Shown piece by piece: positions 59,504 through 62,538 of a stretch of 64,000 bases of DNA (positions are counted from its first letter, which is position 1; every line of letters starts with the position of its first letter). A program made the translations under genes and the position numbers. Below the pieces are notes generated by a model that was given only the letters and a program-made list of their open reading frames with translations, was not told the origin of the DNA and did no database searches. The DNA is from Elusimicrobiota bacterium (lineage in GTDB: Bacteria; Elusimicrobiota; Elusimicrobia; UBA1565; UBA9628). The stretch covers positions 1-64,000 of the forward strand of contig DAIDHI010000022.1 of NCBI GenBank assembly GCA_027452025.1. Direction: 5' to 3'.

Positions 59504-59621
59504 CCTTCGCTCGAGGGCGATCACGGGAACCAAGTAGCGGCTCATTCGTATACTCTATGTGGCCCCATCCTGCGCGCAACTGACCGAAACTCTCCGATAT
59601 ATCCCCGCTGACTCCCGGGCA

Positions 59622-59650
59622 TTGACGTATGGCGAAACCTGGGGTACACT
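59622..59650 (+). promoter_or_regulatory. Promoter-like element (TTGACG-17-TACACT)
   Basis: TTGACG (59622-59627) and TACACT (59645-59650) are 17 bases apart and read towards the hicA-like remnant and the attC site. The rest of 59504-59621 holds no gene that I can support. Confidence 0.45.
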
Positions 59651-59653
59651 CGC

Positions 59654-59710
59654 TTGAAGGTCCGGGAAGCGATCTGGCTGCTCGAAAGAGATGGTCGCAA
59701 GCGCTCAGTC
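59654..59710 (+). pseudogene. Possible 5' remnant of a HicA-type toxin gene
   Basis: The frame starting at TTG 59654 encodes KVREAIWLLERDGRK, which resembles the N-terminus of HicA mRNA-interferase toxins (KVREVIKLLEKDGW type). The resemblance stops after about 16 residues, just before the attC site at 59712. The GSHRQ motif and the rest of the fold are missing. No HicB is present. The start codon lies only three bases after the -10, so expression is doubtful. This may be chance similarity. Confidence 0.25.
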
Positions 59711-59711
59711 G

Positions 59712-59789
59712 ACCTAACGCAACGCTATGCCGCGCGCGCTCTTGGGGGATTCCCACGGAGCGCGCGTCGGCATCAGCGCTTGGTTAGAT
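59712..59789 (-). repeat. attC recombination site (integron cassette 59-base element)
   Basis: The 78-base site is bounded by ACCTAAC (59712-59718) and GTTAGAT (59783-59789), which fit RYYYAAC and GTTRRRY. Between them the arms form a long imperfect inverted repeat. CGCT-ATGCCG-CGCGCGCTC on one side pairs with the other side except for three single unpaired bases, all on the same arm. Unpaired single bases on one arm are the hallmark of folded attC sites. In minus-strand orientation it lies 24 bases beyond the stop of the ATPase gene, the correct place for a cassette attC. Confidence 0.85.
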
Positions 59790-59813
59790 CCCGCCCAATT
59801 CCATTTCATGGTC

Positions 59814-61580
59814 TCAATTCAGAAATTTATCGAACTTTGCAAGAAGAACAGCAATGCCCTTTGGAATCTCGCTTTTCTTGAACTGCAAGAGTATTCGCGC
59901 AGGGGTAAGTGTGACTCCGAGATCGGTATGCACTCTTGCAGTCAGTCGCTTAAACAATTCCTTCCCAGAGAGGACACGCAGGCGAAACTTTAAGTTCGCC
60001 CACTCCTTGTCAAACTCAGCATTAACGACCGCGAGGACAGTTGCCTGGTCCTTTCCTGAGGATCGTTGATGTTCCCAGCGCTTTGCGCCGATTTGGGCCT
60101 GAGTCGTTGCCTTCATATCGTCAGATAATGCCAACAGCAAGTTGGCCGCAGGCGCAATCTTAGAAGGAACTTTTTCTCCACTCCGCTTAGCCTTCTCAGC
60201 TACGAGGAGGGCAATAGTCCGGTCAATTACCTCGGGATTCAGCAGATAGTTTTCAATCTCCTTCCTTTTATGAATGTGGCTGAACGCCACAGCAGTCTTC
60301 AGTTCGGCCTCTATGGCGTCGACCGCCTCTTGCGGAAAGTAATCCCTATCAAAGATGGCTGCAATCTTGGGGGGGCTCGCAACAGCCTTTTTAACCCCCC
60401 AGGCAAAATCCCGAATCCGTTTCCATGCCGCAAACCCGTCAGATTCCAGTGCCGACACGCCTCGGCAGGAGGCAATCTCGGGATAACCAGCCCTGGCAGC
60501 GAAGCCGCGGATGATTTTCAGATCTTCTGCGCCTTCGACAAAAAGAATTCTCCGATTGCGCGCTAACTCTGATAGGGATAGATTGTGTACCGATCCAATC
60601 GTATCAAGGGCCTGCTGAACGCCGTCGGCGTCCTGCACTCTTACGGCTTTTTTTGTCGTCTTATCAACGATAACGATTTCAGCCGGATCAGCCTCGGCCA
60701 TGATCTCCGTAGAGTGCGTTGCAAGCACCACGTCTGGCCCGAGTTGGCGGATGATCGTTACTAGTTGCCTTTGGATTTCAGGGTGCAAGTAAATCTCAGC
60801 CTCATCCACCATGAGTAGCGAGTGGCCCTGTGCATGGACGAAATGGGTAAGCAGCTGGCACCAGGCCTGAAAACCGTAGCCGGCCCAAAATAGCTCCCTT
60901 GTGATACGGTTCTCACGATAAAACATCGTGAGCTTTGAGGCCACCATATCGAGTGCGACCTTTTCAATTTCCATTCCCGGCCAGGTCGATTTAACTAAAG
61001 ATGAGAATTCGAGGAATTTCTCCGGGTAGTGATGCCAGAAATTACGGAAATTTCCTGATGCCCTATGTGAGAGCAAATTGCGGCCGACCGTTTCTCTCTG
61101 GATCAGAATTTCCTCATGCTCAATCGGCCCGAGGATCGGAACCGCCGTAATTTGAATCGGGAACGCGGTCCGAAATGTCGCAGTCGAAGTGATGGCTTTT
61201 GTATCAGAATGCGGAATCAAGCAACAACCGCCATCGCGCGGAAAGAACAAAATGAGACGGTTGCCATTGGAGAGGTGGAATTCTATTGAAGAGTCCGTTT
61301 CTTGATACTCCGTATGAACATTCTCGAGTGAAAGCGGCAAGGAGTCTGGCGAGAGATTATACCCCCGCACTTCGCGCTTCCCGGGTCCCTGGACTACCTC
61401 TGGGGGCTTCGCGCGGGCACGGCGAAGCCCCGCGGCCAAAGCACGAAAGGCACTCAATACTGTCGATTTGCCCGAGTTGTTTGGCCCGACTAGGATATTT
61501 ATGTGCTGAATTGGAATGATGAAGTCAACGAGTGCTTTGAAATTGCGGAATCGAATTGAGCGGATATGAACATCAGGCAT
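59814..61580 (-). CDS. AAA ATPase fused to a DUF4435-like Toprim domain (OLD/PARIS-like, probable anti-phage)
   Basis: The 588-residue protein has an ABC/SMC-type ATPase domain with Walker A GPNNSGKST (residue ~32), Walker B SLLMVDEAEIYLHP (~255) and H-loop VVLATHSTEIM (~280). A Toprim-like part follows: LFVEGAEDLKII with Glu near residue 350, then AIFDRDYF, then RKEIENYLL. The last phrase is typical of DUF4435, the AriB half of PARIS. OLD-family nucleases are the alternative. Codon use and GC differ from neighbours, indicating transfer. A promoter, TTGCGC-17-TATACT, precedes it. Confidence 0.8.
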   Translation of the reverse strand: MPDVHIRSIRFRNFKALVDFIIPIQHINILVGPNNSGKSTVLSAFRALAAGLRRARAKPPEVVQGPGKREVRGYNLSPDSLPLSLENVHTEYQETDSSIEFHLSNGNRLILFFPRDGGCCLIPHSDTKAITSTATFRTAFPIQITAVPILGPIEHEEILIQRETVGRNLLSHRASGNFRNFWHHYPEKFLEFSSLVKSTWPGMEIEKVALDMVASKLTMFYRENRITRELFWAGYGFQAWCQLLTHFVHAQGHSLLMVDEAEIYLHPEIQRQLVTIIRQLGPDVVLATHSTEIMAEADPAEIVIVDKTTKKAVRVQDADGVQQALDTIGSVHNLSLSELARNRRILFVEGAEDLKIIRGFAARAGYPEIASCRGVSALESDGFAAWKRIRDFAWGVKKAVASPPKIAAIFDRDYFPQEAVDAIEAELKTAVAFSHIHKRKEIENYLLNPEVIDRTIALLVAEKAKRSGEKVPSKIAPAANLLLALSDDMKATTQAQIGAKRWEHQRSSGKDQATVLAVVNAEFDKEWANLKFRLRVLSGKELFKRLTARVHTDLGVTLTPARILLQFKKSEIPKGIAVLLAKFDKFLN

Positions 61581-61672
61581 GTGTTCTGTCCAGTTGTTCT
61601 GAAGTGATGTGGATCTAACGTGTGATTAGACTGACCGGCCTAGCTCGGCCATGTTAGATTTGTCGTTTCGGG

Positions 61673-61701
61673 AGTATAGGGCGACTTCCCAATTCGCGCA
61701 A
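61673..61701 (-). promoter_or_regulatory. Promoter of the cassette ATPase gene (TTGCGC-17-TATACT)
   Basis: On the minus strand TTGCGC (61701-61696) and TATACT (61678-61673) are 17 bases apart, 92 bases before the ATG at 61580. It lies upstream of the cassette boundary at 61619, so it belongs to the recipient site and not to the cassette. Confidence 0.45.
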
Positions 61702-61735
61702 GGGGATTTCCCACGGAATCCTTGGCTTGCGGCCC

Positions 61736-61755
61736 GTTAGGCCGGTCGGCCTAAC
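61736..61755. repeat. Perfect 20-base palindrome built from two R-box words
   Basis: GTTAGGCCG-GT-CGGCCTAAC is a perfect inverted repeat of nine bases with a two-base centre. GTTAGGC and GCCTAAC are each valid integron R-box words. Confidence 0.7.
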
Positions 61756-61795
61756 ACGGCGGCCCAGGTCAGCCTATGGAGCCTAACGTGCGGGC

Positions 61796-62095
61796 TCAGC
61801 CCTGATAGGCCCGCTTGATCGCCGCCAGGTCCAACTTGACCATCCCCTGCACGGCCTTCATCATGCGGTTGAGCTGCTCCGGCGTCGCCTTCAGCTTCAG
61901 CATGAGCCCCATGAGCTCGGCGGGAACGACCTGCCAGGTGAGTCCGTTTTTGTCCTTGAGCCAGCCGTGGTCGCCGTAATGGGTGACGCCCAGGATCTTC
62001 GAGTCCTTGAAGACGGCGCAATAATACCGCGCGGCTTCCTCGGCCTGCCCGTCGAACCACAGGCAGGGATTGATCTTGGTCTTTACGAGCCCCAT
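61796..62095 (-). pseudogene. VOC-family (PhnB-like) protein with internal deletion
   Basis: The 99-residue frame begins like the family (INPCLWFDGQAEEAARYYCAVFKDSKILGVTHYGD) and ends like it (HGWLKDKNGLTWQVVPAELM...MKAVQGMVKLDLAAIKRAYQG). The middle part, roughly 50-60 residues carrying the central strands, is absent, and the two ends are joined in frame. Family members are usually about 130-160 residues. The product probably cannot form a normal VOC fold, so I treat it as a decaying gene. It overlaps the next upstream gene. Confidence 0.7.
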
Positions 62096-62538
62096 CCCTT
62101 GAGCACCACTCCCATGCCGTAGCTAAACACCACCTCCCCCCCGAGATACGCGGTATAAAGGAGGAGCCCGGTGGCCAGCACCCAGGCGAGCACTTGCAAG
62201 CGCGGCCACTTGCCGAACCACCGCCAGAGAGACAGGAATGTGAACACGCCCACGGTCCACCAGGCGAAGGTGCGGTGGTCGGCCAAGGCCTCCCAGGCGG
62301 GAGGCACGTGCGGGGCCGTTTTTTCGGCGAGCAGCCCCGCGCCCAGCGCGGCCCAGGCCGAGGCCGTTCCCAGCCACAAGAGCCAGGAAGCGGCCTCGGC
62401 CAGCCACGAGGCGCCGCGCTTAGCGGCGGCGCCGAGCCCGCAAAGGACTCCCAGCGTCAGGAGCGCCAGCGGGAAATGGACGACGGCGGGGTGGATGAGC
62501 CACCACCGCGCGCCGCCCGCGGCGGCGAAGGCTTCTAT
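62083..62538 (-). CDS. DUF2231-like four-helix membrane protein, start codon unclear
   Basis: The frame encodes a DUF2231-type N-terminus, WWLIHPAVVHFPLALLTLG, and about four hydrophobic helices, ending in GWGS. The track starts it at a TTG (62379), which would remove the conserved first third. Upstream of that the frame is open but has no ATG, GTG or TTG. The end given here (62538) marks an ATA overlapping the previous stop as ATAG and is only a proposal. A rare start codon or a sequence error is possible. Function is unknown. Confidence 0.6.
   Translation of the reverse strand: MEAFAAAGGARWWLIHPAVVHFPLALLTLGVLCGLGAAAKRGASWLAEAASWLLWLGTASAWAALGAGLLAEKTAPHVPPAWEALADHRTFAWWTVGVFTFLSLWRWFGKWPRLQVLAWVLATGLLLYTAYLGGEVVFSYGMGVVLKGWGS

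Follow-up and report, generated by a model that had tools for sequence, protein, structure and literature searches.

A probable attI site and putative Pc promoter upstream of a single gene cassette at an integrase-less locus in an Elusimicrobiota bacterium

A cluster of R-box words was analyzed within the window, the whole 64-kb stretch of DNA under study. The portion of the cluster nearest the cassette (61613-61701, minus strand) is in all likelihood the attI site and Pc promoter of a chromosomal integron that no longer has an integrase gene at this locus and holds one cassette. No adjacent intI was found and the locus was therefore named an orphan attI-like platform rather than a complete integron. 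Across a bacterial family and order a conserved attI/Pc layout is recognizable, and it permits an integrase-less remnant to be identified. The locus further suggests how a captured gene, here a putative anti-phage one, can become fixed behind an integron promoter once the capture machinery is gone.

The attI core and putative cassette promoter

On the minus strand the elements were read in the order TTGCGC, 17 nt, TATACT, 53 nt, G|TTAGAT. The R box G|TTAGAT (61613-61619, minus strand) is a GTTRRRY word in the exact register of the family attI sites and marks the exact upstream boundary of the ATPase cassette, with crossover probably after the G at 61619. An inverted L box GTCTAAT (61625-61631, minus strand) lies five bases ahead of the R box across the spacer CACAC; this spacer is 5 nt here versus 4 nt in several other attI sites, and GTCTAAT or GCCTAAT occupies the same place in loci L097, L123 and L112. 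The two boxes fall within the attI core region GGCCGAGCTAGGCCGGTCAGTCTAATCACACGTTAGAT (61613-61650, minus strand). The combined pattern RYYTAAN-N4-5-GTTRRRY occurs once in 64 kb.

The -10 element TATACT (61673-61678, minus strand) of the putative Pc is placed 53 nt before the crossover G, a distance of 50-53 nt in 8 family integrons, and is the only example of this -10/GTTRNNY spacing in the window. The -35-like TTGCGC (61696-61701, minus strand) precedes it with a 17-nt spacer, the same as in the 8 family sites after alignment by hand; -35 and -10 elements in the family attI sites were assigned by eye. TTGCGC is weak as a putative -35 and was left uncalled by a generic promoter scan. The site is marked as an attI by a GTTRRRY R box at the cassette edge, an inverted L box and an in-register likeness to the attI sites of relatives. 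The promoter is marked as Pc by a putative -35/-10 pair at a conserved distance upstream of attI, directed into the array.

The ATPase cassette (59718-61618) would have been inserted by an integrase at the crossover G|TTAGAT in a past event, with intI lost later. The ATPase gene would be transcribed from the putative Pc, whose -10 box lies 53 nt upstream of the cassette. The locus has no integrase of its own, so the cassette would stay frozen in place unless one were supplied in trans.

Outside class 1 integrons, attI sites have been poorly characterized (PMC9024848). In class 1 integrons the attI1 site consists of an L box, an R box and two direct repeats, DR1 and DR2 (PMC12901181). Like attI1, the window site has an L box and a GTTRRRY R box, which make up a simple site at the border of the first cassette. 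DR1 and DR2 were not identified at the window site; the additional R words of the window at 61653 and 61736-61787 could serve in their stead but are placed differently. In the relatives, unlike attI1, Pc lies past the end of intI and ahead of attI, and intI is co-directional with the array. Archaeal attI sites are also found downstream of intI (PMC9668308).

Comparison with attI sites of related integrons

Comparison genomes were taken from the same family and order. IntI scoring over the curated cut-off was found in 12 of 44 genomes of the same family. At 8 of 14 retrieved intI loci, a GTTRRRY-like word lying within 200 bp downstream of intI was found 50-53 nt beyond a promoter-like pair with a 17-nt spacer. 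This family layout is that of Pc followed by attI, with array and intI co-directional.

The attI sites compared were those of the family (L086, L090-L093, L095, L097, L098) together with the held-out family and order sites (L087, L088, L111, L112, L113, L123). They share with the window site the 17-nt Pc spacer, the 50-53 nt to the crossover, the inverted L box and the GTTRRRY-like R box, and their arrays are co-directional with intI. The window site differs from them in having a VOC gene upstream in place of intI and extra R words upstream of Pc.

A profile was built from the 8 family sites (L086, L090-L093, L095, L097, L098) with no window sequence included. Position 61619 was ranked first among 128,000 positions with 29.7 bits, within the leave-one-out range of the family (20-56). 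A sequence-only model (R2) trained on the same 8 family attI sites gave one match in the organism's own 3.25-Mb genome, the window attI (E 0.014, a modest 17 bits). Over 234 kb, R2 returned nothing beyond the 8 attI sites of its training set, the window site and two held-out sites that lie downstream of intI. Elsewhere in the order, R2 also matched held-out attI sites belonging to other families (L111, L112, L113, L123), all of which lie downstream of intI. When the window 34-mer ending at the crossover GTT was compared with 475,086 positions of intI-bearing loci, the best position was the held-out L111 attI, identical at 25/34 letters and in exact register, and the reverse search from the L111 attI gave back the window site.

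Toxin-antitoxin-like genes were seen by Pfam between intI and Pc/attI, inside the platform and outside the array, at three of these loci: BrnT at L087:9368-9646 and at L088:4531-4854, and HicA/HicB at L111:2418-2809.

The R-word cluster and the attC sites

A preliminary description had reported a dense cluster of RYYYAAC/GTTRRRY words within 175 bp. All five were recovered at their coordinates, 61613 (ATCTAAC), 61653 (GTTAGAT), 61736 (GTTAGGC), 61749 (GCCTAAC) and 61781 (GCCTAAC), out of a total of 46 across the window. Such words are short and degenerate and the promoter is weak by consensus, as would suit a chance cluster around an ordinary ATPase promoter. This explanation is very improbable: five words in 175 bp were attained in 0/40 dinucleotide shuffles of the 64-kb window, the independent profile ranks the site first, and at its opposite end the cassette is closed by a true attC.

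That attC (59712-59789, minus strand; R'' ATCTAAC, R' G|TTAGGT) scored 55.2 bits with R1, a covariance model made without window sequence from 13 attC sites of integrons in the same family. It aligns with the 13 family sites and folds with z values of -5.8/-6.5 (-6.5 on the minus strand). By its sequence it is a true attC of the family type. In the organism's own genome R1 found the window attC and three more. Contig C39 carries a second integrase-less cassette array (L131:660-2569), with four attC sites at 41, 58, 39 and 24 bits and a MazEF-like pair included.

The cluster itself had been taken for a second, degenerate or composite attC, perhaps produced by repeated cassette insertion and loss. 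The five R words speak for it, as do an inverted repeat and a loop-like sequence in common with the true attC. The inverted repeat proposed between 61620-61650 and 61731-61757 held up as an imperfect one. Without gaps it joins 61626-61642 with 61738-61754 over 17 nt at 88%; with gaps it extends to ~28 nt, a length equalled in 2/2000 mononucleotide shuffles. The likeness of the loop was present, in that GGATTTCCCACGGA near 61704 has two mismatches against the attC loop, but 7/300 shuffles equalled it and the match is therefore weak, close to chance.

Folding argued against a second attC. Folds of 61605-61795 and its sub-pieces on both strands gave z values of only -0.8 to -2.2, and the long R-box-paired stem of an attC was absent from all of them. 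With filters off, R1 gave at most 7.4 bits in 61400-62100, and the cluster was rejected as an attC. The attI/Pc anatomy, moreover, accounts for the cassette-proximal half. The earlier reading thus stood as to an integron recombination site at the upstream cassette edge and failed as to a second attC, which is now improbable. Similar sequence elsewhere had also been suggested as a check: DNA searches of the own genome with the cluster region returned chance matches of 14-20 nt only, and a plasmid search returned zero matches.

The attI/Pc reading leaves half of the R words (61736-61787) outside its unit and unexplained. Two of these words lie in the palindrome GTTAGGCCGGTCGGCCTAAC (61736-61755), which had been called perfect and matches at 18/20 letters; it is located upstream of Pc and resembles an inverted copy of the L-side arm of attI. 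A further GTTAGGC word (61781-61787, minus strand) lies directly after the stop of the VOC gene. The word ATCTAAC (61653-61659, minus strand), between Pc and the attI core, may from its sequence be an accessory integrase binding site or due to chance. Taken together, the extra words (61653 and 61736-61787) are no attC; they may be accessory sites for the integrase or pieces of attI that have been rearranged. Repeated insertion and loss would be one possible source of the words at 61736-61787.

The cassette, its locus and comparable systems

The inserted cassette (59718-61618, minus strand) is 1,901 bp long, its edges being given by the R boxes of attI and attC. Its G+C content is 51.7%, with 50.6% for the Pc/attI stretch and 68% for the window. 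The cassette gene (59814-61580, minus strand) encodes a 588-aa OLD/PtuA/AriAB-like ATPase with VEG and DRD toprim-like motifs. AAA_21/AAA_15 domains were identified and the protein resembles the AriAB, Old and GajA models. The Walker and VEG/DRD motifs are retained in homologues at 39-44% identity. Structure prediction (pLDDT 83, pTM 0.54) gave a model that matched the structures of PtuA and OLD (E near 1e-13), but at TM-scores of only 0.3-0.5. A putative anti-phage defence role is likely.

An attC-like hairpin (17.2 bits, E 0.023) was observed on a Desulfobacteraceae contig (L068:1053-1114) just upstream of a 45% identical homologue of the ATPase, and genes of this kind may therefore be mobile as cassettes in other settings as well. 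The flanks of six other homologues were without a clear attC.

In 7 of the 8 family relatives in which both could be read on one locus, the cytochrome c and DUF2231 genes are convergent and separated by little sequence; in the eighth (L032) they are ~0.8 kb apart. Here ~2.6 kb is inserted between them, comprising the VOC gene, the R-word cluster, the ATPase cassette, attC and ~200 bp. Since the two genes adjoin or nearly so in the relatives, the cassette and attI were taken to be an insertion, and the sharing of one locus by both flanks in relatives argues against a chimeric contig.

The VOC/3-dmu-9 gene (61796-62095, minus strand) occupies the place of intI in the relatives. Relative to its G062 homologue it has an in-frame loss of ~64 aa mid-protein, and its start overlaps the end of DUF2231. 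It was considered as a cassette gene and rejected because of this overlap and the lack of an R box at its start. The own assembly (estimated 93.9% complete) contained no IntI scoring over the curated cut-off, and searches for an intI remnant beside the window attI gave chance-level matches only.

A lone cassette, no adjacent intI and a site that is intergenic in relatives would also be expected of an attG, a non-canonical genomic insertion in which the cassette enters the chromosome directly between two convergent genes without an integron platform; such sites have been described (PMC12901181). The window locus resembles attG as a lone chromosomal cassette away from intI and differs by its attI/Pc anatomy. 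The 90 bp upstream fit the family attI/Pc in spacing and sequence beyond the crossover word, and a bare attG would bring no low-G+C Pc/attI stretch. Direct insertion at an attG is accordingly considered unlikely, and the attI/Pc platform is preferred.

The locus also resembles CALINs, clusters of attC sites without integron integrases (PMC9024848), in having a cassette and attC and no integrase. It differs from them in retaining attI and Pc and in having one attC only, where the default minimum is two. By default IntegronFinder calls a CALIN from two attC sites upward, and it detects attI in class 1 integrons alone (PMC9024848). A locus like that of the window would therefore probably go unreported. 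It is tentatively suggested that attI/Pc platforms which have lost intI might endure as permanent sites of expression for individual useful cassettes, defence genes among them; a class of integron remnants of this kind would escape present tools for the same reasons. This is rather less probable than not.

The left flank of the cassette (59504-59711) contains a possible truncated hicA start, LKVREAIWLLERDG (59654-59695, plus strand), which ends ~17 nt before the attC R box. hicA was not confirmed by Pfam for LKVREAIWLLERDG. A consensus-like promoter (59622-59650) lies ahead of this possible start.
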